Source: Natrialba swarupiae
Lineage (GTDB): Archaea; Halobacteriota; Halobacteria; Halobacteriales; Natrialbaceae
Length of the DNA stretch: 64,000 bases
Reading direction: 5' to 3'
Assembly: GCF_008245225.1 (NCBI RefSeq)
Contig: NZ_VTAW01000011.1
Location: 62,001 to 126,000 of the forward strand
How positions within the stretch are numbered: the first letter of the stretch is position 1; every line of letters starts with the position of its first letter. Positions 46,236-60,226 of this stretch are shown here, piece after piece. The translations under genes were made by a program, and so were the position numbers. The notes below the pieces were generated by a model. It worked only from the letters and a program-made list of their open reading frames with translations. It ran no database searches and was not told where the DNA came from.

Positions 46236-47147
46236 CTACTCCCCGAGTCCGCTGTCCGAGTGGGCTCGTACCCAGAGTTCGCCGATCCGCGAGAGCCGCG
46301 TTCGGTACGACTTCCCGTGTTCTTCGCGTTCGATGTACCCCTTGCCGCCCGGCCCCAGCCGATCGACGTTGTAGATGACCTTCGAGCGGAAGCTGTCGGT
46401 GTACTCCTCGTTGAGTTCGCGCGCGAGCGACTCCGCCAGTTCCGAGACCGAGGCGAACTCGCCGTCCTCGCCGAGTTTGTAGAGGATGAGCTCCTCGAAC
46501 GGTTTGACGTTCGAGAAGGAAGCGACCGGTAACTCGACGATGTGGCGGCCGTCGATCTCCTTCGCTCCGATCGTCGTCCCGCGCTCGTCGAACTCCGAGA
46601 GCAAGTCTCGAGCGCTCTCCAGACGGTTCGCGATCCGATCCGCCGTGATCGCTGCTGTGTCATCCTCGTGGTCGAGGTCCTCGAGGAGCGCGATCTGATC
46701 GCGAAGCTCCTCGGCGAGTTCGGTCTCTAAGTACTTCTCCGGGGCGGTGTAGTAGGTGTGTATGTGTTCGCGGTCTTCCTCGCGTTCGACCATCAGCGAG
46801 TGGGCGGCGTTCGCGAAGGCGAAACTCACCGTTCGGGGCATCGCCGCCACGTTGACCCACACCTCGTTCTCGCGATCGAGTTCGGCCGTGATGAGTTCGT
46901 AGGCCTGTTCGAACGCCTCGTCGTAGTCGTAGACGTCCTCCAGGACGAATCGATCGGTCTCCGCGCCAAGCAGGTTTCGAAAGTCCGTCTCGAGTTTTTT
47001 CGAGAGGTGTCTGGAGTACTCGACGTTGGCCTCGCTCCCGACCGCCCCTTCCAAGAGAATGACGCTGTCGACGTCGATCTGATCGCGGACGAGCGGGGCG
47101 ATCAGCCGGTCGTAGTCGAAGCCGACCGGGACGATGTGGGTTTGCAT
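46236..47147 (-). CDS. HFX_2341-family (DUF6293) regulator, CARF-like plus winged helix
   Basis: 303 residues. The N-terminal half (MQTHIVPVGFDYDRLIAPLV, ILLEGAVGSE, VWVNVAAMPRTVSFAFANA) has the Rossmann-like layout of CARF domains that bind nucleotide signals. The C-terminal ~80 residues (LILYKLGEDGEFASVSELAE, then KVIYNVDRLGPGGKGYI) form a winged helix. It matches the haloarchaeal HFX_2341/DUF6293 family. No CRISPR or defence effector lies nearby, so any cyclic-oligonucleotide sensing would act elsewhere. A TATA element 25-33 bases upstream sets the start at 47147. Confidence 0.8.
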   Translation of the reverse strand: MQTHIVPVGFDYDRLIAPLVRDQIDVDSVILLEGAVGSEANVEYSRHLSKKLETDFRNLLGAETDRFVLEDVYDYDEAFEQAYELITAELDRENEVWVNVAAMPRTVSFAFANAAHSLMVEREEDREHIHTYYTAPEKYLETELAEELRDQIALLEDLDHEDDTAAITADRIANRLESARDLLSEFDERGTTIGAKEIDGRHIVELPVASFSNVKPFEELILYKLGEDGEFASVSELAESLARELNEEYTDSFRSKVIYNVDRLGPGGKGYIEREEHGKSYRTRLSRIGELWVRAHSDSGLGE

Positions 47148-47169
47148 ACGTGCTAGTTCGTCGGCGGGG

Positions 47170-47180
47170 TAATATATTCC
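47170..47180 (-). promoter_or_regulatory. TATA element of the HFX_2341-family gene
   Basis: On the minus strand GGAATATATTA, 23-33 bases before the ATG at 47147, i.e. a leaderless transcript; this excludes the longer in-frame start at 47270. Confidence 0.55.
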
Positions 47181-47324
47181 CTCGAGTCGTCTCTCCGCCA
47201 GCTCGTCGACCGCGGTTCCGTCGTCGGCTCCTGCCCAGGTACCGGTGTGGACCGGGCGAATCGACGGCATATATCAGTTGTGGCGAACCTTCATGATCGT
47301 GTCGCCGGGTAGTCTCGACCAAGA

Positions 47325-48907: not shown

Positions 48908-50386
48908 TCAGCTATCCGGCCAGCGCTCGATGTAGATCGTTTTGTCCGTATAGAAGTGGATCATGTCCTCGCCTTGTGCGTGGAGGTCCCCGAAGAACGA
49001 GTCCTTTCGACCGCCGAAGTGGAAAAACGCCATCGGTGCTGCAGTACCCGCGTTGACGCCGAGGTTTCCGACGTCCGCCTCGTGGCGCACTTTCCGGGCG
49101 TCTGCACCGTCTCCGGTGAACAGACTCGCGGCGTTTCCGAACTCGCTTCGGTTCATGACGTCGATCGCCTCGTCGACGTCATCGACCGCCATCAGTCCGA
49201 GCACGGGGCCGAAAATCTCCTCGCGCACGATCGTCATTTCGGGCTCGACGTCGCCGAAGACGGTCGGTGCGAGGAAGTTCCCGTCCTCGTAGCCGTCGAC
49301 CTCCACGTCGCGGCCGTCGAGGAGCAACTCCGCACCCTCCTCGACGCCGCTCGCGATCAGATCGCGGACGCGGGATTCGTGTTCCGGCGTGATCAGCGCG
49401 CCGATATCGGTGGCGTCGTCGAGACCGTAGCCGACGGTCTGGGCCGCCGCCTCCTCGAGGACGAGGTCGGTGAACTCGTCGTAGACGCCCTCCTCGACGA
49501 CGATGACGTCGTTGGCGAGACACCGCTCGCCCCCACAGGCACAGGCCGACGACACCGTCTTCGCCGCGGCGAACTCGAGATTCGCGCTCTCGGTGACGAT
49601 GATGTGATTTTTCGCCCCGCCCTGGGCCTGGACGCGCTTTCCGTTCGCCGCGGCGCGTTCGTACACCGTCTCCGCGACGGGCGTCGAGCCGACGAACGAT
49701 GCCCCCTGGATCCCCTCGTGGTCGAGGAGTCCGTTCACGGTGTCGACGCCGCCGTTGACGAGCTGGACGACGCCGTCGGGGAATCCCGCCTCGTCGATCA
49801 GCTCGAACAGTCGCTGTGCGACGACCGGATCCTGTTCGCTCGGCTTGAGGATGAACGCGTTCCCGGTCGCGACCGCGTAGGGGAGAAACCAGAGCGGAAT
49901 CATGCCCGGGAAGTTAAACGGCGTGATCGCCGTAAAGACGCCCAGCGGCTTGCGAATCGCCGTCTCGTCGATATCGGGTGCCGCGTTCGGGAGGTGGCCA
50001 GCTTGCATCATCGAGGGAATGCCACAGGCGACCTCGACGTTCTCGATACCGCGTCGGAGCTCGCCGTTCGCCTCGGCGAGTGTCTTCCCGTGTTCCCGGA
50101 CGAGAACCTCCGCGAGCTCCTCCTGGTGGTCCTCGAGGAGCTGTTTGAGTTCGAACAGCGGCTGGATGCGTTCCTCGACCGGCGTCTCACTCCACTCCTC
50201 GAACGCGGCCTGTCCCGCGCTCACGGCGGCGTCGACGTCGTCTGTCGAGCTGAATCCGACGTACGAGATCGTCTCTCCAGTCGCCGGATCGACGATGTCC
50301 TGTCCATCGGTTCCCGACGGAGCGTGCCAGTCGCCGTCGATGTAGTTCTGTACGTCGTCCCACGGAGGCGCTGTCTCGAGTGTCAT
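48908..50386 (-). CDS. mmsA: CoA-acylating (methyl)malonate-semialdehyde dehydrogenase
   Basis: 492 residues, aldehyde-dehydrogenase superfamily, MmsA type. It oxidises malonate or methylmalonate semialdehyde with NAD and CoA to acetyl- or propionyl-CoA plus CO2. Diagnostic segments are ITPFNFPGMIPLWFLPYAVA, GSTPVAETVYERAAANGKRV, the catalytic Cys in CGGERCLAND (~residue 280) and the end GRKDSFFGDLHAQGEDMIHF. It is divergent from an aminotransferase gene, with a 171-base shared AT-rich promoter region. The pair fits breakdown of beta-alanine or a similar omega-amino acid. The start at 50386 gives MTLETAPPWDDVQNYIDGDW. Confidence 0.92.
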   Translation of the reverse strand: MTLETAPPWDDVQNYIDGDWHAPSGTDGQDIVDPATGETISYVGFSSTDDVDAAVSAGQAAFEEWSETPVEERIQPLFELKQLLEDHQEELAEVLVREHGKTLAEANGELRRGIENVEVACGIPSMMQAGHLPNAAPDIDETAIRKPLGVFTAITPFNFPGMIPLWFLPYAVATGNAFILKPSEQDPVVAQRLFELIDEAGFPDGVVQLVNGGVDTVNGLLDHEGIQGASFVGSTPVAETVYERAAANGKRVQAQGGAKNHIIVTESANLEFAAAKTVSSACACGGERCLANDVIVVEEGVYDEFTDLVLEEAAAQTVGYGLDDATDIGALITPEHESRVRDLIASGVEEGAELLLDGRDVEVDGYEDGNFLAPTVFGDVEPEMTIVREEIFGPVLGLMAVDDVDEAIDVMNRSEFGNAASLFTGDGADARKVRHEADVGNLGVNAGTAAPMAFFHFGGRKDSFFGDLHAQGEDMIHFYTDKTIYIERWPDS

Positions 50387-50410
50387 CGAACAGTCGAACG
50401 TTACTCCCGT

Positions 50411-50430
50411 TGGCAATAAAACCTTTCAAT
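50411..50430 (-). promoter_or_regulatory. mmsA promoter, AAGGTT-type
   Basis: Minus strand ATTGAAAGGTTTTATTGCCA, with the TATA part 30-35 bases before the ATG at 50386. Its AAAGGTT core recurs at the promoters of neighbouring genes in this cluster. Confidence 0.5.
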
Positions 50431-50516
50431 ACTTTCCTCTCAATCATGCATATACAGAATATCGTCCCAAAGACACCCAAAGTAGAGATATTTTGTACTA
50501 CTATACTTAGACAGGG

Positions 50517-50532
50517 CCAAAGATTAATCAAT
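50517..50532 (+). promoter_or_regulatory. Aminotransferase promoter, AAGATT variant
   Basis: CCAAAGATTAATCAAT, with the TATA part about 34 bases before the ATG at 50558. It differs from the sequence at 56472-56487 at only two positions. Confidence 0.5.
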
Positions 50533-50557
50533 GAGGGGCGAGAGGTGTTACGCAAGG

Positions 50558-51898
50558 ATGTCAGAACGGGAATCCGCGGAGGGTGACGGATTGAACGATA
50601 TCGAACGAACCGACAAAGAGCACGTATTCGGGACCTGGTCGTACCAGAAGGAGGTCAGTCCCACGCAGGTCGTCGACGCTGACGGCGTCCGGTTTACCAC
50701 CGCGGACGGCGACGAGTACATCGACTTCTCGAGCCAGCTCATGTGCTCGAACCTCGGCCACAGCGCCGATCGGATCGCCGACGCGGTCGACGAGCAGATG
50801 CGAGACGCCGCGTACGTCTCACCGGGGTACACCACGGAAAACCGCGCGAAGCTGGGCGAGAAACTCGCCGAGATTACGCCCGGAGAGCTCTCGAAGACGT
50901 TCCTCTCGACCAGCGGGACGGAAGCGGTCGAAGCAGCGATCAAGATCGCACGATTCTACACGGGCAAACAGAAGATCATCTCCCGCTACCGCTCCTATCA
51001 CGGCGCGACCTACGGCTCGATCAGCGTGACCGGCGACCCCCGTCGTCTCGAGTCCGAGCCGGGGATTCCGGGGACGATCAAGGCACCGGATCCGTACGCC
51101 TACGGCTCGACGCTCGATCCGATGGAGAGCGTCGAGTACATCGACGAGATGCTCGAACTCGAGGGGGATACGGTCGCGGCGATCCTGGTCGAACCGATCG
51201 TCGGCTCGAACGGGATCCTCGTCCCGCCCGAAGAGTACCTCCCGCGGCTGAAGGAGGTCGCACACGACCACGGCGCGTTGCTCATCTGTGACGAGGTGAT
51301 GGCGGGATTCGGCCGAACCGGCGAGTGGTTCGGCTGTGACGTCTTCGACGTCGAACCCGACATCATGACGATGGCGAAGGGACTGACCGGGGCGTACCAG
51401 CCGCTTGGCGCGACGATCGTCACTCCGGAGATCGCCGACCACTTCGAGGAGAACATGCTCTGTCACGGCCACACGTACGCCGGTCACCCGGCCGCCGTCG
51501 CGGCGGGACGTGCGGCGATCGACATCTACCAGGAAGAGAACCTCATCGAACGGGCAAGCGAGGTCGGCGAGTACCTGGGCGACCGGATCGACGAACTCGC
51601 GGACCGTCACCCGAGCGTCGGCGACACTCGCGGCGTCGGGCTGTTCAGAGGGATCGAGCTCACCAAACACCCCGAAAAACGCGTCCCCTTCGGCGAGCGA
51701 GCGGACAAGATCAGCCCCGGCTCCACGGTCGTCGACGAGGTGTCGGCCACGGCCGCAGACCACGGCACCTACGTCGCGAACATGATCAACACGCTGATCA
51801 TCGCACCGCCGCTTACGATCACCGAAGACGAGATCGACGAGGCGATCGCGGCGATCGACGCCGGCCTCGAGGTCTCCGACGACGCGATGGAGCACTGA
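50558..51898 (+). CDS. Class III aminotransferase (omega-amino acid/beta-alanine type)
   Basis: 446 residues, PLP-dependent, fold type I. Landmarks are TFLSTSGTEAVEAAIKIARF, SRYRSYHGATYGSISVTGD, LLICDEVMAGFGRTGEWFG and the PLP lysine in MTMAKGLTGAYQPLG (~residue 272). Class III enzymes with this pattern act on beta-alanine, GABA, taurine or similar. The divergent mmsA gene favours beta-alanine or 3-aminoisobutyrate, giving (methyl)malonate semialdehyde. I chose the ATG at 50558 (MSERESAEGD); an ATG nine codons upstream is less likely given the promoter position. The regulator gene follows 67 bases downstream. Confidence 0.9.
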   Translation: MSERESAEGDGLNDIERTDKEHVFGTWSYQKEVSPTQVVDADGVRFTTADGDEYIDFSSQLMCSNLGHSADRIADAVDEQMRDAAYVSPGYTTENRAKLGEKLAEITPGELSKTFLSTSGTEAVEAAIKIARFYTGKQKIISRYRSYHGATYGSISVTGDPRRLESEPGIPGTIKAPDPYAYGSTLDPMESVEYIDEMLELEGDTVAAILVEPIVGSNGILVPPEEYLPRLKEVAHDHGALLICDEVMAGFGRTGEWFGCDVFDVEPDIMTMAKGLTGAYQPLGATIVTPEIADHFEENMLCHGHTYAGHPAAVAAGRAAIDIYQEENLIERASEVGEYLGDRIDELADRHPSVGDTRGVGLFRGIELTKHPEKRVPFGERADKISPGSTVVDEVSATAADHGTYVANMINTLIIAPPLTITEDEIDEAIAAIDAGLEVSDDAMEH

Positions 51899-51928
51899 TC
51901 GGGGTCGAGCCCCCATCCGCGTTCGTGA

Positions 51929-51945
51929 AACAAGGTTCATTGATC
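51929..51945 (+). promoter_or_regulatory. Lrp/AsnC gene promoter, AAGGTT-type
   Basis: AACAAGGTTCATTGATC, about 21-37 bases before the ATG at 51966; related to the promoter sequences of mmsA, the aminotransferase and the ureohydrolase. Confidence 0.45.
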
Positions 51946-51965
51946 TAGACGGTAATCGAGATATC

Positions 51966-52490
51966 ATGGAAGGCACACTTCACACCCAACAGGATCTGGA
52001 CGAGACGGATCTCGCGATCATCGAGCGGGTCGAGGAGGATTTCGACGTCAGCCTCGAGACCCTGGCCGACGAACTCGATCTCTCGAAATCCGCCGTCCAC
52101 TACCGGCTGAACAAACTCAAAGACAGCGACGTCATCAAGGGTGTGAGTGCAGACGTCGATCCGCTCGCGTTCGGACTCGAGATGGTGGCGATCACGGACG
52201 TCTCCGTGGCACACGAGAGCGGGTACTCGGAGAACATCGGCGAAGAGTTAAACGACCTCGAGGGCGTCGAACGAGTCTACTACACGATGGGGGACGTCGA
52301 CTTCGTGGTCGTCAGCCGCGTCCAGACTCGCGATCAGTTGAACGACCTCATCGACCAGATCGTCGCAGTCGAGGGCGTCAACGAGACGTCTTCGAAGTTC
52401 GTGATGCAGGAGTTCGACGCCGACAGCTCTCTCGTCTCGAATCTCACGGACGAAGCGCGCCAGGCAGTACTCGACGCGTCGACGAACTGA
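51966..52490 (+). CDS. Lrp/AsnC-family transcription regulator
   Basis: 174 residues: N-terminal helix-turn-helix (LDETDLAIIERVEEDFDVSL, then LDLSKSAVHYRLNKLKDSDV, ~14-60) and a C-terminal RAM ligand-binding domain (VERVYYTMGDVDFVVVSRVQ). Such regulators usually sense an amino acid and control its transport or breakdown. Placed between the aminotransferase and the transport genes it is the obvious candidate to control this cluster and perhaps its own gene. The 25-residue C-terminal extension past the RAM domain is somewhat longer than usual. Confidence 0.92.
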   Translation: MEGTLHTQQDLDETDLAIIERVEEDFDVSLETLADELDLSKSAVHYRLNKLKDSDVIKGVSADVDPLAFGLEMVAITDVSVAHESGYSENIGEELNDLEGVERVYYTMGDVDFVVVSRVQTRDQLNDLIDQIVAVEGVNETSSKFVMQEFDADSSLVSNLTDEARQAVLDASTN

Positions 52491-52551
52491 TTGGCGTCGC
52501 CGCCTTCGTTTCTCACAGCTACATCGCGCTGACGGATAACGGTCCGTCTCG

Positions 52552-52651
52552 TAGGGATTATCGTCACCAACCGATCGTTTCGCCGCTTGTCTGTCGACAT
52601 CGTGTCTCGGCCGACGGGCGGGTAATCGATGGACGTCTACGATAATCCCTA
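52552..52651. repeat. Inverted-repeat element, type 2, copy 2
   Basis: TAGGGATTATCGT (52552-52564) and its exact inverse ACGATAATCCCTA (52639-52651) enclose 74 bases. It lies between the convergent regulator and MFS genes and ends at the MFS stop codon. It has the same ends as 48096-48190. Confidence 0.55.
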
Positions 52652-53824
52652 TCAGTATCCCGTCCCGCGGAGCCAGTTCCCGAGGAGAAGAACGCAAACG
52701 ACCACGAGCGAGACGATCAGCGTACCAAAGGAGACGGCCCAACCGAACTGGTCGGCGAGCGCGCCGAGCGCGAGCGACCCCGACGATGCGATGACCAGGT
52801 AGACGGTACGTACCAGCCCGAACCCGGTCTCGCGCTCGGATTCTGAGAGGTGATCCATAAACTGCGGGAACACCGACGCGCCCCATCCCATCCCGAATCC
52901 GAGAAGCACGATCCCGGTCACGGCGGCGGCGATTCCCGGGACGGCCAGGAGCATCGCGAGTCCGGCGATCGCCGCGATCATACAGGTTCCGGTCGCGACG
53001 TTTCGACCGTACCGATCGGAGAGCGAACCGACGCCGATCTGAAGGATACCCAGCGTGAGAAAGTAGACGGCGAACAGTACCCCTGCGTCCGTCGATGAGT
53101 ACTCGCGGTAGACGATGAGAAACGTCGGCAAAAAGGAGATGAGTCCCGTCCAGACGAACTCGGCGAGAACGGCGATCGCGCTGGTGAACGCGATCGCTGG
53201 CCGAGAGAGCACGGCGAGAAGCGGACGGATCTGAAACCGTTCGGTAATGGACATTTCGGGCCGACGAGGCTCCGTCTCCCGGACGTTTCCAGCGAACAGG
53301 ACGAATACCACCGCTGCGACCAACGCCGTCGCCGCGATGGCGGGTCGCCACCCGTAGCGAACGGCGATCCACGAGACGGCGATCGGCGTACACAGCCCAG
53401 CGATCGGACCGCCGGCGTTGTGGATCGCGATCGGTGTCCCGATCCGATCGAACGCACGCGTGATCATCGCCGTGGCGACGCTGAAGTGAAGCCCAGCGAC
53501 GGCACCTAACAGCACTGTCCCCGCGAAAAAGACCTCGAAGCGTGGTGCCGTCGCAAGTACGAGACAGGCGATGCCGGTTCCGCCGATCGAGACGAGGATA
53601 ATCCGACGTTCGCCGTAGCGGGTCGCGAGGATCCCGCTTGGATACTGGACGAGCGCGTAGGAGAGCCACATTCCCGTCAGCGAAGCGCCGATAAGCGTGT
53701 TCGAAACGGTGAACTCGTTCGTGATCGACGGGACGATCGGACTGATCGCGACCCGACCGACCATCGTCGCGAAAAACGCGAGCGTACAGTGTGCCAGAAC
53801 CGTGTGTCGGTACCGCCAGCTCAT
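52652..53824 (-). CDS. MFS transporter
   Basis: 390 residues with twelve predicted helices. The start MSWRYRHTVLAHCTLAFFAT enters helix 1. Loop motifs GILATRYGERRIIL (2-3) and GSLSDRYGRNVATG (8-9) are typical MFS sequences. ATG at 53824 is chosen; in-frame upstream starts at 53908 (MGHNPIERSS) would add 28 polar residues and cannot be excluded. It is carried next to amino-acid catabolic genes and could import or export a carboxylate or amine, but its own substrate is unknown. Confidence 0.85.
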   Translation of the reverse strand: MSWRYRHTVLAHCTLAFFATMVGRVAISPIVPSITNEFTVSNTLIGASLTGMWLSYALVQYPSGILATRYGERRIILVSIGGTGIACLVLATAPRFEVFFAGTVLLGAVAGLHFSVATAMITRAFDRIGTPIAIHNAGGPIAGLCTPIAVSWIAVRYGWRPAIAATALVAAVVFVLFAGNVRETEPRRPEMSITERFQIRPLLAVLSRPAIAFTSAIAVLAEFVWTGLISFLPTFLIVYREYSSTDAGVLFAVYFLTLGILQIGVGSLSDRYGRNVATGTCMIAAIAGLAMLLAVPGIAAAVTGIVLLGFGMGWGASVFPQFMDHLSESERETGFGLVRTVYLVIASSGSLALGALADQFGWAVSFGTLIVSLVVVCVLLLGNWLRGTGY

Positions 53825-54003
53825 CGCGTCGACTTCCTTCGGTTCGAAGTTCGATCTCTGTTCTCGGTCGACATCGTACGACGAACGTTCGATCGGGTTG
53901 TGCCCCATCGCTCGAGCGGACCTGTGTACGGTATCGCCGGCCACCACGCAGCTACAGACTGATCGCGGTTACACCGACGAGGGTGGACATCGGCCCCACC
54001 CAT

Positions 54004-54086
54004 ACCGTCTCCTGTTCGTCAGATCCGGTCGGACCGCGACTCGGGCGACGGTCCCACCGATATATCGGTTCACTAGCCCGTCTCAG
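54004..54086. repeat. Dispersed intergenic element, copy 5 (divergent)
   Basis: ACCGTCTCCTGTTCGTCAGA ... ends GCCCGTCTCAG, matching the ends and length of the copies at 48005 and 57624. Its right end holds the TGA stop of the symporter gene on the minus strand. Confidence 0.45.
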
Positions 54087-55642
54087 TCGTCTTCACTCTC
54101 TCCGACTCGTTTGGCACTCGGCGGAGCCGATGGCTCCCCTGGCTCCGAGGGGACGTTCTGTGACATCTCGAGGTCGCTTGCCGAGTACTCGCGAAGTTCG
54201 TAGACGAACTCGTTGACGCGCTCTTCGTCGGGTTCGGCGGTAACCAACGAGACAGCCACGAGAACGACTCCAGAGGCGATCAGGCCTGGAACGCCGATCC
54301 ACAAGTCGAGCGGAATCGGGGCACCCGTCAGCGAGTAGTACCAGATCACCGCGAGTCCGACGAGCAATCCAGCGACGGTTCCCTGCCAGTTCGCCCTCGG
54401 CCACCAGAAGGCGGCGATTGCCGGCGGAAGCAACAACAGGTATCCCGGTATCGCCAGGTCGATCGCGACCTCGACGAGCAGCCCGAGGTCGATAAGCGAG
54501 AATCCGAGTGCCAGCAATGCGAGTAACCCGGAGAAGATCTTCGAGTTGCGCGAGAGTTTCTGGTCGGAGATGTCGGCAGAGAGCAGTTCTTCGTAGACGT
54601 CACGGGAGACGATCGATCCCATCATGAGGATCATCGTATCGGCGGTCGACATCGCGGCCGCGACTGCGGCTGCCATCAGAATACCGAGGACCGGCCCCGG
54701 CATCTCGAGGATGTACTGGAGGATGACCGTATCGGGGTTCTCTAGCCCGCCGTGTGCGGTCAATCCCGCGAACGCGATGAGGCCGGGGAAGATCGTCAAC
54801 AACACCAGCGCGGAGAACGAGTCACCGAACCCCATCGCCCACACCGCAGACTGGCGTTTCGAGGAGTAGTAGCGCTGCCAGATGTGGGGGAATACCGGAA
54901 TCGCGAGCCCGAACCCGGCTGCAGCGGTGTAGAGATAGAGCGGGTCCATCGTCACCTGTCCGACGGCGTCGAACTGCTGGGCGGCGTTTACGTACACGTC
55001 GGACGGTGTCGTGAGGAGGACGTATCCCGTTACGGCGACCATCCCACCCCACAGCAAAATTGCCTGGAGCGCGTCGGTGTACGCGACACCGCGCATCCCA
55101 CCGATCGCGATGTAAGCGGCCATCGCGATACCGATAATCACAGCCGCTGCCTCACGCGAGATCAGTCCGTCGGTCAAGACGTTGAGCACGAGCCCCATCC
55201 CAGTGAACTGGATGGTCACGTAGAACATCGTGAAGCCGACGGCGATGAGTGCGACAAGTACACGGACCGACGTACTTCCGCCGTACCGATCGGCGAAGAG
55301 ATCCGCGGGCGTGACGTAGTCCTTGCCGGTCTTGCTGATCTTCCAGATCTTCTCGCCGAGCATGACGATGATCGGGAAGTCGGTGACGACGATAGCCCCG
55401 ATGATGACGAGTCCTGCGATCCCGAGATCGTACGCGATCCCGCCGCCGCCGAGGAACGTGTACGCCGAAAACGCCGAGGCGATCATCGTCAGGAAGATGA
55501 CGATGCTGCTCAACGAGCCGTTTGCGACGAAGTAGTCGCTGACACCGATGTCGGTCAGACGGCCTCCGTACATCGAGAGGACGAACAGTCCGGCCAGATA
55601 GACGCCCGTGAGCGCGAGACCAACGTAGATCCACGTGGACAT
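54083..55642 (-). CDS. Sodium/solute symporter (SSS family)
   Basis: 519 residues with thirteen to fourteen predicted helices. SSS-family segments include SDYFVANGSLSSIVIFLTMI, IGGMRGVAYTDALQAILLWG (the GM(R/W)xxxxTDxxQ signature) and AAAMSTADTMILMMGSIVSR (sodium-site Ser/Thr). The C-terminal 60 residues are a hydrophilic tail. It should import an organic solute with sodium. The start codon follows directly on the TAG of the small membrane gene (TAGATG), so the two are translated together. Substrate likely one of the compounds degraded by the neighbouring enzymes. Confidence 0.92.
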   Translation of the reverse strand: MSTWIYVGLALTGVYLAGLFVLSMYGGRLTDIGVSDYFVANGSLSSIVIFLTMIASAFSAYTFLGGGGIAYDLGIAGLVIIGAIVVTDFPIIVMLGEKIWKISKTGKDYVTPADLFADRYGGSTSVRVLVALIAVGFTMFYVTIQFTGMGLVLNVLTDGLISREAAAVIIGIAMAAYIAIGGMRGVAYTDALQAILLWGGMVAVTGYVLLTTPSDVYVNAAQQFDAVGQVTMDPLYLYTAAAGFGLAIPVFPHIWQRYYSSKRQSAVWAMGFGDSFSALVLLTIFPGLIAFAGLTAHGGLENPDTVILQYILEMPGPVLGILMAAAVAAAMSTADTMILMMGSIVSRDVYEELLSADISDQKLSRNSKIFSGLLALLALGFSLIDLGLLVEVAIDLAIPGYLLLLPPAIAAFWWPRANWQGTVAGLLVGLAVIWYYSLTGAPIPLDLWIGVPGLIASGVVLVAVSLVTAEPDEERVNEFVYELREYSASDLEMSQNVPSEPGEPSAPPSAKRVGESEDD

Positions 55643-55921
55643 CTAGTGGTCCTCCGTCGTCTCTGCGGGTTTCGGTTGCGTAAAGACCTCGCGCAAATCC
55701 GGTTTCCCGAGGTAGAGCCATCCGATTATCGAATTCGCGGCCACGACGAGCGTCAAAAACGCGATCAAGACCACGAACGGTTCCGGCAGACCGACGACGG
55801 TCCCCGTCGGCTGTTGATAGTAGTACAGGTATCCGATCAGTCCGAGATTGGTCAGAACGGCGAACCCGACCCACCCCCGTCCAATCGTTGCTTTTTTACT
55901 GTGTTTGCGTACCTCTGACAT
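55643..55921 (-). CDS. Small membrane partner of the SSS symporter
   Basis: 92 residues, two membrane helices (~18-36 and 46-68), basic start MSEVRKHSKKATIGRG. It is encoded immediately before the symporter with no gap. The second symporter in the window (58482-59951) is likewise preceded by a 92-residue two-helix protein (DUF3311 type), so this is a repeated pairing. It may be an accessory subunit needed for folding or transport. Confidence 0.75.
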   Translation of the reverse strand: MSEVRKHSKKATIGRGWVGFAVLTNLGLIGYLYYYQQPTGTVVGLPEPFVVLIAFLTLVVAANSIIGWLYLGKPDLREVFTQPKPAETTEDH

Positions 55922-55944
55922 GGCGTTATCGGGTTACTACTATT

Positions 55945-55963
55945 TCCATATAAACCTGATTGT
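55945..55963 (-). promoter_or_regulatory. Promoter of the small-subunit/SSS operon
   Basis: Minus strand ACAATCAGGTTTATATGGA, with the TATA part about 30 bases before the ATG at 55921; shares AGGTTwAT with other promoters of the cluster. Confidence 0.5.
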
Positions 55964-56108
55964 CAAGGTTAATTCTCCAAATGAACTCGTGATAGTTGAA
56001 CAATGTGCTATTGACTCCTGGCGACGGTGGCGCCAGTTCCTGTGAGTGGCGGAATCAGGTTTTTTCCATTGCTCGCAAAATACGAATTCTGAATCGCCGG
56101 CTCGAGCG

Positions 56109-56196
56109 CTCAGACGGACTGCTGTCCCGATCTCCCGGCGGACCCGCCCTACGGATCCCGGCTGTGCCAACACCGACCGACAGGAGACCAGGTCAG
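56109..56196. repeat. Dispersed intergenic element, copy 6
   Basis: CTCAGACGGACTGCTGTCCC ... GACCGACAGGAGACCAGGTCAG, 88 bp, the reverse-complement counterpart of 57624-57711 with the same length and terminal inverted ends. Confidence 0.6.
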
Positions 56197-56471
56197 CCGA
56201 TCGATGCAGCGCCGAAACCCGGCCTGTCGGTGGAGATCCACGCTGTCTGTGGGTTGAACACTGTTCGTCGTATTTTCGGTAAGGAACCGATTTTCCACAC
56301 GGTCACGGTTGGTGTGGCCCGGTAGTGGCGGTCAACCGTACTGATAGAGAGGATACAAAAAGCCAGGACAGCAATAGGGAATGAACAATGTACAGTAAAT
56401 ATGACATCTAGTTGTATTTTTCCCACCAGAATAGTGTTTTGTGGGATGGATTCCTCTTGTTTCGGAATAAT

Positions 56472-56487
56472 GCAAAGGTTAATCAAT
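56472..56487 (+). promoter_or_regulatory. AAGGTT-type promoter upstream of the ureohydrolase gene
   Basis: GCAAAGGTTAATCAAT, almost the same as CCAAAGATTAATCAAT before the aminotransferase gene, but 125-139 bases before the ATG at 56611. That implies a leader of about 100 bases, or a second start site nearer the gene. Confidence 0.4.
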
Positions 56488-56610
56488 CCCGTTTTCCAAC
56501 TGTCCCGACAGTATGCGAATCGATTTGGTTGGCCGGCCCGACCGGCCCAAAGCGGACGAGGTCGCGACCGGATTTAGGATTGGAAAACGTTCAAATATTA
56601 GTGGTGTCCG

Positions 56611-57543
56611 ATGATCGATCCACAGGAAGTGCCGCGATTCGCGGGGGTGCCGTCGTTCATGCGGATGCCACACACGTACGATCTCTCGGACGGCGTCGAG
56701 GCCGACGCGGCCTTTCTCGGAATCCCGTTCGACGATGCGACGACGTACCGGCCCGGTGCTCGGTTCGGTCCGAGGGCGATCCGCGAAGCATCGACACTGC
56801 TCAAACCGTACAACTCGATCACGGAAACGAACCTGCAGGAGTACTCGATCGTCGACCACGACGACGTTCCGGTGGTTCCGGGATACATCGAGGAGACGTT
56901 TGCCGAGATCGAAGAGCGCGTCGGGTACGTCCTCGAGTCCGGGGTGATTCCGGCGATCGCCGGTGGCGATCACTCGACGACGTTACCCGTGTTGCGCGCC
57001 GTCGCCGAGAAACACGGTCCCGTATCGCTCGTCCAGTTCGACGCCCACTCGGATCTCTGGACGGAGTACTTCGGGAAAGACCACAATCACGGTACGACCG
57101 TCCACACGGCGATCGAGGAAGGGTTGATCGACCCCGAAACGTCGATCCGAATCGGCGACCGTGGCGGCCTGTACAGCGCCGACGACGTCGATCTCATCGA
57201 AGACTCCGGGATCGAGTACCTGACGACCGAAGAGGCCGCGTCTCGAGGGTTCGATTCGCTTGGCGATCGGATCCACGACAGAGTGGACGGGCCAGCGTTC
57301 GCGACGATCGACATCGACGTCGTCGACCCCGCGTTCGCACCGGGGACGGGCACTCCCATGCCCGGCGGGCTGACATCGCGGGAGATTCTTCGCCTGACGC
57401 GGTCGCTCCACGACATCGATCTCGTTGGATTCGATCTCGTCGAAGTGGCACCGACGTACGACCCCGCCGAGACGACCTCGGTTCTCGCAGCGAACGTGAT
57501 GTTCGAAGCCCTGTGTGCGGCACTCGACGGAACCACCGCGTGA
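56611..57543 (+). CDS. Agmatinase-family ureohydrolase
   Basis: 310 residues, arginase/agmatinase fold with a two-manganese centre. Ligand motifs GGDHS (~residue 115), DAHSD (~142), and DIDVVDPAFAPGTGTP (~233) are intact. The enzyme releases urea from a guanidino compound: agmatine, 4-guanidinobutanoate or 3-guanidinopropanoate are all possible. With an omega-aminotransferase and MmsA in the cluster, 3-guanidinopropanoate giving beta-alanine is attractive; with pdaD in the genome, agmatine giving putrescine also fits. It is divergent from the symporter operon. ATG at 56611 opens into the family N-terminus (RFAGVPSFMRMP). Confidence 0.9.
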   Translation: MIDPQEVPRFAGVPSFMRMPHTYDLSDGVEADAAFLGIPFDDATTYRPGARFGPRAIREASTLLKPYNSITETNLQEYSIVDHDDVPVVPGYIEETFAEIEERVGYVLESGVIPAIAGGDHSTTLPVLRAVAEKHGPVSLVQFDAHSDLWTEYFGKDHNHGTTVHTAIEEGLIDPETSIRIGDRGGLYSADDVDLIEDSGIEYLTTEEAASRGFDSLGDRIHDRVDGPAFATIDIDVVDPAFAPGTGTPMPGGLTSREILRLTRSLHDIDLVGFDLVEVAPTYDPAETTSVLAANVMFEALCAALDGTTA

Positions 57544-57623
57544 ACGAGAGCTCCCCCGCGAGCGAACGCGGAGGCTGATCCAGTCCGGTCGGTAGCGGGC
57601 CAGCCTCTCGAAGCCCGCATCGT

Positions 57624-57711
57624 CTCAGACGGTTTCCTGTCGGTCAGTGCCGGCTCAGCTACGACTTGTGGGGCGGGTCCGCCGAGAGATCGAGGCCGCA
57701 ATCCGTCTCAG
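57624..57711. repeat. Dispersed intergenic element, copy 7
   Basis: CTCAGACGGTTTCCTGTCGG ... GCAATCCGTCTCAG, 88 bp with near-inverted 9-bp ends. It lies in the 216-base gap after the ureohydrolase gene, which has no other feature. Confidence 0.6.
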
Positions 57712-57759
57712 TTGCGAGTTTTCTGCTCCGAACTCCTGTGATAGCGACTGCGGTCGCGC

Positions 57760-58374
57760 TTATCCATCCTCGTCGACGTCGAGATCGAGTTCCTTGACGA
57801 GCGTCGAGACGCGTTCCCGATCGCGCTCGAGTTCGGCGTCGGCGCGGTCCTCGATCGACCCCGCGTCGTCGAGGTCTTCGAGTGGCACTGTCCCGCCGGC
57901 GACCCCGAACGTCGTCTCGGCCGGCCAGACGGCGACGTGGGCTTCGGCTCGAACGCGATCCCCGTCGGTGGCGGTCCGATCCGCGTCGACGGGATAGGTG
58001 ACGTCGAGAACCGACCAGGTGCCCGCTGACCCGTTCGGTCCGTCGAACTCGAGTTCGTCGCGGACGCCCTCGACGACCACGCCGTCGTCCGCGAGCATCT
58101 CGACGAACTGGTCTCGCGCCGTCGAGGCGGCCTTCGAGCGGACCGACTCCGGCGAGATGCCGACCGACGACAGCGACGGCGAGAACTCGAGATCGACCGC
58201 GAACAGCGATCGAGGCGGGAACTCGGTCGCCACGGCGTCGGCGAGCGGCGACGGGTCGACGGGTTCGTACAGCGTCGTCTCTGCGGTGATCGACACGACC
58301 AGGACGCTCGTCTCACCGACGCGCGTTCCGAGTGTCGTCCACGTTTCAGCCAACGGCTCCGGCAGGTCGGTCAT
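57760..58374 (-). CDS. Conserved haloarchaeal protein, unknown
   Basis: 204 residues, soluble, acidic, beginning MTDLPEPLAETWTTLGTRVG. Mixed helix and strand with segments VLVVSITAETTLYEPVDPSP, FAVDLEFSPSLSSVGISPES and RAEAHVAVWPAETTFGVAGG. The end is a charged helix (RADAELERDRERVSTLVKEL). No family is recognised. The ATG at 58374 is preferred to longer frames because composition changes there. It is in the same direction as the symporter pair upstream, with a 107-base gap. Confidence 0.65.
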   Translation of the reverse strand: MTDLPEPLAETWTTLGTRVGETSVLVVSITAETTLYEPVDPSPLADAVATEFPPRSLFAVDLEFSPSLSSVGISPESVRSKAASTARDQFVEMLADDGVVVEGVRDELEFDGPNGSAGTWSVLDVTYPVDADRTATDGDRVRAEAHVAVWPAETTFGVAGGTVPLEDLDDAGSIEDRADAELERDRERVSTLVKELDLDVDEDG

Positions 58375-58481
58375 CGATCCCGCGTACGTGTGGCTGGGTT
58401 TTCGATCTGGCGATCCCAGCGTCGGGTAGGGTGGCGATCTCACCGTCGAGCAGGTTCGAATTGGGCCACACGGACGACAGG

Positions 58482-59951
58482 TCAGTCCGCGCCGAGTCCG
58501 TCGAAGTAGATCGATCGGCGCTCGGCGGCCGCAGGTGTGGTGACAAGCGAGACGACGACGGTGACGACGAGCCCGACCCCCATCCCGACGAGGCCGGCGG
58601 TCCACCCGCCGTAGGCCGCCGGAACGGCGGCAACGAACAGACTCGAGAGGTAAAACAGCTGGCTCGAGAGGATACCGGCCGTGATTCCGGCCCGTGTCGT
58701 CCCCCGCCAGTAGAGTGCGATCATGACGGGGAGGGCGAGCTGGGCGAAACCACTGAAGGCAGCGTCGCCGAGTTCGAACAGTGTAGCGGGGTTGAGGAGG
58801 CTCACGGCGAAGGCGGCGCTCGCGAAGACCACGACGCCGACGCGGGCGAGCAGGTCCTCACGGCGTTCGGAGACGTCCCGTTCGACGAACGGCCGGTACA
58901 GGTCCCGCGTGAAGTACGACGACCCGGACAGCAACATCGAGTCCGAGGAGGACATCATCGCGGCCATCGCGCCAGCGATGACGAGCGCGGCGAACCAGAC
59001 CGGCGTGAACTCGGCGAGCACCGCCGGGAGGACGTTTCCGCCCTCCGGAACGGCGACGTCGAGGCCGCGTGCCCACGCGCCGAGCATGAACGAGGGGACG
59101 AACAACAGGACACAGAGGAGCGGCCAGAGCGCGAAGGATCGTTTGAGTACCGTCTTCGACCCTGCGGCAAAAAACCGCTGGTTGACCTGTGGGAACATCG
59201 CGACGCCGAAGCCGATCACGATCGCCGTCGAGAGCATCCACTGGATCGTGTAGTGATCGCTCCCCAGCGCGAGGTGGTGGGCCGCCTCGGCCTCGAGCGC
59301 CGCCGTCGCCGCGCCGGGGCCTCCGACGACGGCGAGCACCCAGAGCATCGCGACCCAGGTCGTGACGAGCATGAACGCACCCTGGAGGGTGTCCGTCCAG
59401 GCGATGCCGCGCATGCCGGCGACGACGACGTAGAGGATCATAAACGCCGTAATCAGCCCCGCGCCGACGGCGTACGGAACCGCGCCATCGGTCAGCGCCT
59501 CGAGGGCGGTGCCGGCGCCGACCTGCTGGAGCATGACGTACGGAAAGAGCCAGACGAGGCTGACGACGGCGACGAGGCCGCGGAGCCACCGCGAGGCGAA
59601 GCGATCACCGAGCATCTCACCCAGCGTAACGTAGTCGTATTGCTTACCGAGTAGCCACTGTTTGTAGCCGATGACGTACCAGAGGATGGCGAAGATGATG
59701 CCGTCCATCAGCCCCATCACGAGCACCCACTCCGGACCCTCGTGGTAGGCGACGTTCGGCCCGGCGAAGAAGGTAAACGCCGACAGCAGCGTCGCGAACG
59801 TCGTAAAGAGGAGGACGACGGTTCCGAACGTCCGGCTCGCGAGGTAGAAGTCCTCCGCGGTCCGGTCGGTCATCCGGTAGGCAACGAGGCCGATACCGAG
59901 AGCGAGGGTCAGGTAGCCGACGATAATTCCGAGTTGGATCGTGAGCGTCAC
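58482..59951 (-). CDS. Sodium/solute symporter (SSS family), second copy
   Basis: 489 residues, thirteen predicted helices. Family features are TAEDFYLASRTFGTVVLLFT, VVAGMRGIAWTDTLQGAFML (signature) and MSSSDSMLLSGSSYFTRDLY (sodium-site region). It differs clearly from the copy at 54083 and is closer to the pantothenate/monocarboxylate-type members. Its ATG overlaps the TGA of the DUF3311 gene (ATGA), so they are coupled. Substrate unknown; carboxylate uptake would suit the adjoining catabolic genes. Confidence 0.92.
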   Translation of the reverse strand: MTLTIQLGIIVGYLTLALGIGLVAYRMTDRTAEDFYLASRTFGTVVLLFTTFATLLSAFTFFAGPNVAYHEGPEWVLVMGLMDGIIFAILWYVIGYKQWLLGKQYDYVTLGEMLGDRFASRWLRGLVAVVSLVWLFPYVMLQQVGAGTALEALTDGAVPYAVGAGLITAFMILYVVVAGMRGIAWTDTLQGAFMLVTTWVAMLWVLAVVGGPGAATAALEAEAAHHLALGSDHYTIQWMLSTAIVIGFGVAMFPQVNQRFFAAGSKTVLKRSFALWPLLCVLLFVPSFMLGAWARGLDVAVPEGGNVLPAVLAEFTPVWFAALVIAGAMAAMMSSSDSMLLSGSSYFTRDLYRPFVERDVSERREDLLARVGVVVFASAAFAVSLLNPATLFELGDAAFSGFAQLALPVMIALYWRGTTRAGITAGILSSQLFYLSSLFVAAVPAAYGGWTAGLVGMGVGLVVTVVVSLVTTPAAAERRSIYFDGLGAD

Positions 59952-60226
59952 GGCTCGTCACCCCACGCGGCCGAGTTCGACGACCGGCGCTGTCCCTTCG
60001 GTTCGCTCTCGCTCGAGGACGGCGTCGCTTCGATGCCGATCCCCCAGGCTCGTTGGGCGAACAGCCAGAAGACGATCGAGGCGAGTCCCATCCAGCCGAC
60101 GTGCCACCAGAGCCACAGCGGAACGCCCGCGATCAGCGTATCGTCGCCCCACAGAAACCACGGGATCGCGAGCGCGGAGAGGACGACCGCGACGGTGATC
60201 CACCCCCACAGTTCTCGTCGGCGCAT
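59948..60226 (-). CDS. DUF3311 small membrane protein
   Basis: 92 residues, two membrane helices (~8-25 and 36-62, with the Trp-rich LWLWWHVGWMGLASIVFW) and a polar tail. DUF3311 proteins are typically encoded directly before SSS symporters and are thought to be partner subunits. The ATG at 60226 starts the conserved part. It overlaps the symporter start by four bases. Confidence 0.85.
   Translation of the reverse strand: MRRRELWGWITVAVVLSALAIPWFLWGDDTLIAGVPLWLWWHVGWMGLASIVFWLFAQRAWGIGIEATPSSSESEPKGQRRSSNSAAWGDEP

Follow-up and report, generated by a model that had tools for sequence, protein, structure and literature searches.

A route from dihydrouracil through beta-alanine to acetyl-CoA has been proposed from transcript data for Haloferax volcanii, involving HVO_A0295 (amaB2), HVO_A0303 (dpyS), HVO_A0305 (mmsA), HVO_A0306 (gabT6) and the Lrp gene HVO_A0307 (PMC6801745). 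In the Sulfolobales, a beta-alanine-responsive Lrp encoded beside an aminotransferase is known experimentally, and in S. tokodaii a semialdehyde dehydrogenase gene adjoins the pair (PMC4977709, PMC10201364). Beta-alanine is also the product of GpuA, the guanidinopropionase of P. aeruginosa (PDB 3nip and 3niq). Here we analyse a 64,000-nt stretch, the window (G000:C8:62001-126000), within the 4.2-Mb genome of the haloarchaeon Natrialba swarupiae. At 48,908-57,543 it carries a gene cluster encoding the dehydrogenase MmsA, a class III aminotransferase, an Lrp regulator, an MFS carrier, a sodium/solute symporter (SSS1) with a small partner, and a ureohydrolase. We put the probability at roughly 55% that this cluster couples a module for guanidino-acid uptake and hydrolysis (SSS1, its partner and the ureohydrolase) to a beta-alanine unit, with 3-guanidinopropionate as the most likely substrate.

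The putative beta-alanine unit is a trio of genes. mmsA (48,908-50,386, minus strand; nearest PDB sequence 1t90) encodes a CoA-acylating (methyl)malonate-semialdehyde dehydrogenase that scores 529.9 bits against TIGR01722, above the cut-off of 448.5. The class III aminotransferase (50,558-51,898, plus strand; PF00202, 318 bits) is a probable beta-alanine or 3-aminoisobutyrate transaminase, judged by its context with mmsA, Lrp and carbamoylase/hydantoinase genes, and the Lrp/AsnC regulator (51,966-52,490, plus strand; PF01037 and PF13412) is likely responsive to beta-alanine or a related amino acid. Orthologs of the aminotransferase (at least 62% identity) occur in 22 of 146 genomes of the order, with mmsA no more than 4 kb away in 17 of them; Lrp orthologs (56-76% identity) adjoin it in 15 of the 18 loci fetched, and the order of the three adjacent genes in the window is the same as in many relatives. 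Of the 12 genomes that have both an M20 carbamoylase ortholog and the aminotransferase, eight have the two genes about 8 kb apart or less. The best-matching PDB chains of this carbamoylase are putative hydantoinase/carbamoylase amidases, and a dihydropyrimidinase/hydantoinase, an NCS2 nucleobase permease and an F420-type oxidoreductase also recur near the unit. Because of the carbamoylase and dihydropyrimidinase neighbours, the H. volcanii proposal and the Sulfolobales Lrp, the trio is best interpreted as a conserved haloarchaeal unit acting on beta-alanine (or 3-aminoisobutyrate).

The arrangement in the window resembles that of HVO_A0305-A0307, where mmsA is likewise transcribed away from a class III aminotransferase gene that has Lrp beside it (PMC6801745); the likeness is one of gene arrangement. 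In contrast to the window, no ureohydrolase or SSS1 is described in H. volcanii, and the window's carbamoylase and hydantoinase orthologs lie on another contig of its genome, C82, together with an NCS2 permease. The Sulfolobales BarR shares with the window an Lrp gene that adjoins an aminotransferase and, in S. tokodaii, a semialdehyde dehydrogenase gene beside it (PMC4977709, PMC10201364), but it belongs to a divergent operon, and beta-alanine, the ligand of BarR, is only a putative ligand of the haloarchaeal Lrp. As a separate observation, an F420-type luciferase-like oxidoreductase gene stands between the carbamoylase and dihydropyrimidinase genes in several haloarchaeal beta-alanine loci (L140:10069-11100, L139 and L143), and the H. 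volcanii region holds a luciferase-family gene, HVO_A0295A (PMC6801745); this oxidoreductase could be the missing uracil-reducing enzyme.

The other module centers on an arginase-family, guanidinopropionase-like ureohydrolase (56,611-57,543, plus strand; PF00491, 295 bits). The metal-ligand motifs GGDH, DAHxD and DxD are invariant in a 26-row alignment and are all present in the window enzyme. Substrate recognition has been assigned to Tyr157 in guanidinopropionase and to Met161 in the guanidinobutyrase GbuA (PMC10833137), and Arg72 of the neighbouring subunit has been suggested as a possible contact for the substrate carboxylate (PMC9772407). All six haloarchaeal orthologs have Tyr at the Tyr157/Met161 position, and all six have Lys at the GbuA Arg72 position, where the known enzymes have Arg, so the charge is kept and the residue identity is not. 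In the window enzyme these residue roles, including the carboxylate contact, are inferred from its homologs. The AlphaFold model (mean pLDDT 86) finds its best structure matches in guanidinopropionase (3niq, Z 41.8; 3nip, Z 41.5). The window enzyme shares with GpuA its arginase-family fold, the specificity Tyr, a positive residue at the Arg72 position and, as proposed here, beta-alanine as product; it differs in sequence (41% identity), in falling into a separate clade and in the loop that follows HGT. It probably works like GpuA.

Two other substrates bear on these same data. The top-scoring PDB chain for the ureohydrolase in a phmmer search is the guanidinobutyrase 3nio, as would be expected if 4-guanidinobutyrate were hydrolysed to gamma-aminobutyrate and the aminotransferase then made succinate semialdehyde. 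However, the structure match to 3nio is weaker (Z 32.2), the specificity position holds Tyr rather than Met, and the cluster encodes MmsA rather than a succinate-semialdehyde dehydrogenase, which together make 4-guanidinobutyrate a decidedly unlikely substrate. The enzyme also exceeds the cut-off of the agmatinase profile TIGR01230 (231.4 against 174.3 bits), which would suit an ordinary agmatinase of polyamine metabolism; yet guanidino acid hydrolase relatives carry the same annotation, and nearly all such ureohydrolases are named speB in public annotation, so the name is uninformative. Where the agmatinase SpeB has NLAWEHN the window enzyme has LLKPYN, with Lys in place of the Trp-bearing loop; in the E. 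coli agmatinase, Trp68 of this loop contacts the amino group of agmatine (PMC8125230). With two other arginase-family genes present in the genome as well, we consider an agmatinase very unlikely. A second ureohydrolase in this genome, from a different haloarchaeal clade, is encoded directly after a class III aminotransferase (L157, G000:C37:232000-251900, at 8.2-10.6 kb), a pairing that recurs in genomes G055 and G115.

The first-pass annotation had proposed a comparison of gene order across haloarchaea, and would have been contradicted by a lack of conserved co-localisation in relatives. The ureohydrolase lies with mmsA and an aminotransferase in two of six haloarchaeal loci, so the association is not the rule and the outcome of this comparison is mixed. 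In Halomarina, a single 11-kb stretch (L034) carries the ureohydrolase, SSS1, DUF1989, carbamoylase, mmsA, an alanine-dehydrogenase-like gene of archaeal type and an aminotransferase, in an order unlike that of the window; its mmsA is 73% identical to the window's. Outside the archaea, plasmid 1 of Rubrobacter radiotolerans (NZ_CP007515.1) has an operon mmsA-ald-aminotransferase-ureohydrolase (speB)-amino acid permease, in which the aminotransferase and ureohydrolase genes overlap. This operon has the same three enzyme families as the window, and its ureohydrolase (46-48% identity) carries Tyr and Arg at the specificity positions; unlike the window, the operon is bacterial, encodes an alanine dehydrogenase as well as an amino acid permease, lacks SSS1 and Lrp, has an aminotransferase only 37% identical, and is of putative function. 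A second Rubrobacter plasmid reads aminotransferase-permease-ureohydrolase-aminobutyraldehyde dehydrogenase-ald, and its ureohydrolase has neither residue, which again speaks against 4-guanidinobutyrate as substrate of the Tyr-bearing window enzyme. Such a contrast is what one would predict were the MmsA-linked ureohydrolase to yield beta-alanine.

The ureohydrolase itself is rare: at 70% identity or more it occurs in five of 392 genomes of the order, and also in Halomarina halobia. Orthologs of SSS1 (54,083-55,642, minus strand; PF00474), the probable importer of the ureohydrolase substrate, were found at more than 50% identity in three of 146 genomes, exactly those that have the ureohydrolase. 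In each of them SSS1 and its small partner adjoin the ureohydrolase, and Halomarina adds a fourth case. The chance overlap of two independent three-genome sets among 146 is about 2 in a million, kinship ignored. The ureohydrolase and SSS1 are co-inherited. The 92-aa membrane partner (55,643-55,921, minus strand) adjoins SSS1 and gave no match in Pfam and NCBIfam searches; a counterpart with 36-46% identity adjoins SSS1 in L034, L114 and L115. No SSS1 was found within 10 kb of the ureohydrolase in genomes G197 and G170; in the latter, two ureohydrolase genes stand instead next to an ABC importer of the spermidine/putrescine type. Both the Na+ symporter and the joining of the ureohydrolase to mmsA and the aminotransferase set the window apart from the GpuA system, whose permease, gpuP, is of another type.

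A different set of partners is more frequent at these loci. In four of the six (Halomarina, G115, the Halalkalicoccus genome G073 and G197), the ureohydrolase is accompanied by DUF1989 and an M20 carbamoylase, Halomarina having these as well as mmsA and an aminotransferase. The window locus is without DUF1989 and the carbamoylase, and a search of its genome for a DUF1989 ortholog turned up nothing closer than a distant family member on another contig. One conceivable explanation is a haloarchaeal twin-route system for beta-guanidino acids: DUF1989 would deiminate the guanidino acid to a ureido acid from which the carbamoylase would free beta-alanine, while the ureohydrolase would reach beta-alanine in a single step with release of urea, the window organism keeping only the latter branch at this locus. 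We regard this as unlikely; were it true, action on a guanidino acid would be an activity new to the DUF1989 family. Across 384 genomes, DUF1989 orthologs (at least 60% identity) occur in six, three of which also have the ureohydrolase. Directly upstream of the Halomarina ureohydrolase lies a creatininase-family fragment, comprising the C-terminal part only (L034:9414-9779).

The history of the gene appears to differ even between close relatives. G197 (L170/L172) is a congener of the window organism, and its ureohydrolase is only 73% identical to the window's and groups with that of Halalkalicoccus, pointing to separate lateral acquisition in the two. A phage-type integrase gene lies near the G197 ureohydrolase. 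In the window, the ureohydrolase gene lies between two inverted 93-nt copies (75% complementary) of a short dispersed repeat, at 56,109-56,201 and 57,619-57,711. A genome search with one copy returned 38 matches, several of about 80 nt, and the repeat may represent a REP-like sequence or a small mobile element.

Several results weigh against a guanidinopropionate pathway. HGTxFR[RH] is common to GbuA, GpuA and proclavaminate amidinohydrolase, and the window enzyme has HGTTVHT. In the tree, the window ureohydrolase lies in a clade of its own (support 100/99) alongside several others, and GpuA groups with proteobacterial sequences; because of this separate clade and the missing FR[RH] motif, we did not file the enzyme as GpuA. 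Structure matches to proclavaminate amidinohydrolase (Z 41.1) and agmatinase (Z 40.2) are nearly level with those to guanidinopropionase. In four of the six haloarchaeal ureohydrolase loci, no mmsA or aminotransferase of the window's type was found within about 10 kb, so the mmsA link is not universal; in G115 the trio is on a different contig from the ureohydrolase. Finally, among PDB sequences the aminotransferase is closest to a taurine:2-oxoglutarate aminotransferase, 6jix. The last point would be accounted for if the substrate were taurocyamine (guanidinoethanesulfonate), converted through taurine to sulfoacetaldehyde, and a related human enzyme hydrolyses taurocyamine efficiently (PMC9772407). 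However, the genomic partners of the aminotransferase are mmsA, carbamoylase and hydantoinase genes, not those for sulfoacetaldehyde enzymes, and we consider taurocyamine highly improbable.

The gaps in co-occurrence could also mean that the insert holds two unrelated modules, with the trio serving beta-alanine derived from uracil and the ureohydrolase and SSS1 scavenging nitrogen from some other guanidine, whose product does not feed the aminotransferase. The trio mostly occurs without the ureohydrolase in haloarchaea, just as most ureohydrolase loci lack the trio, and the organism's own hydantoinase, carbamoylase and NCS2 permease could supply beta-alanine. Other bacterial ureohydrolase relatives that have the Tyr adjoin different genes, the plasmid-borne ones mostly in different contexts, so Tyr alone does not predict an mmsA link; among the bacterial ureohydrolase relatives found by a scan of genome contigs, none had DUF1989 or M20 genes nearby and symporter, mmsA or aminotransferase genes were rare neighbours. 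Against two unrelated modules stand the grouping of ureohydrolase, mmsA and aminotransferase in both Halomarina and one Rubrobacter operon, and the GpuA-type residues, which point to beta-alanine as the ureohydrolase product. We judge this explanation to be unlikely.

We favor the coupled pathway, in which SSS1 would import a beta-guanidino acid, most likely 3-guanidinopropionate, by Na+ symport. The ureohydrolase, a di-metal enzyme by its computed fold and ligands and probably a manganese one, would hydrolyse it to urea and beta-alanine. The aminotransferase, judged by family and context, would convert beta-alanine to malonate semialdehyde and pass the nitrogen to a 2-oxo acid, and MmsA is predicted from its family to perform the CoA-acylating oxidation of malonate semialdehyde to acetyl-CoA, CO2 and NADH. 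By parallel with the Sulfolobales, Lrp may sense beta-alanine. Such a chain, from guanidino acid to acyl-CoA with 3-guanidinopropionate as the tightest fit, had been put forward in the first-pass annotation, and it is the best supported chain for all the enzymes: the context of the trio with N-carbamoyl-beta-alanine-type enzymes, the guanidinopropionase-type residues and the Halomarina and Rubrobacter co-occurrences strengthen it, while the separate clade, the HGTTVHT motif and the close Z-scores of proclavaminate amidinohydrolase and agmatinase count against it. A route from 3-guanidino-2-methylpropanoate through 3-aminoisobutyrate to propionyl-CoA would fit the same enzymes.

The limits of the cluster are narrower than originally drawn. 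All of the gene families first named (MmsA, class III aminotransferase, Lrp/AsnC, ureohydrolase, MFS and two SSS symporters with small partners) are present by profile matches, but they do not form one cluster from 48,908 to 60,226. In all eight same-family relatives examined, the second symporter, SSS2 (58,482-59,951, minus strand; orthologs 78-88% identical), stands together with its DUF3311 partner (59,948-60,226, minus strand; PF11755), an HTH gene and a dnaG-like gene. The gene at 57,760-58,527 (minus strand) adjoins the SSS2-DUF3311 pair in seven of the eight, and the gene at 46,236-47,270 lies 1.3-4 kb beyond the block in five. SSS2 and DUF3311 were thus rejected as cluster members, and what remains, about 8.7 kb, has the appearance of an insertion into a conserved backbone. 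The backbone stretches of the eight relatives yielded none of the insert genes, and the G+C content of the insert (0.61) is slightly below that of the rest of the window (0.65). The MFS carrier of the insert (52,652-53,830, minus strand; PF07690, 189 bits) had no ortholog in the related loci L137-L156 and no NCBIfam match at E<=1e-20. No Rfam riboswitch reached its gathering score in the 46-61 kb part of the window.

These parts are of known kinds and their combination is uncommon; the literature searched contained no archaeal cluster for guanidinopropionate catabolism and no archaeal use of this compound. If our reading is correct, this would be an archaeal guanidinopropionate cluster in which one locus encodes everything from uptake through hydrolysis to the complete conversion into acetyl-CoA. 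It would also provide specific substrates for enzymes that go by 'agmatinase' and 'aspartate aminotransferase family' in databases, and the residue pair, together with the two Rubrobacter operons, offers a means to tell, in annotation, which hydrolases act on guanidinopropionate and which on guanidinobutyrate or agmatine.

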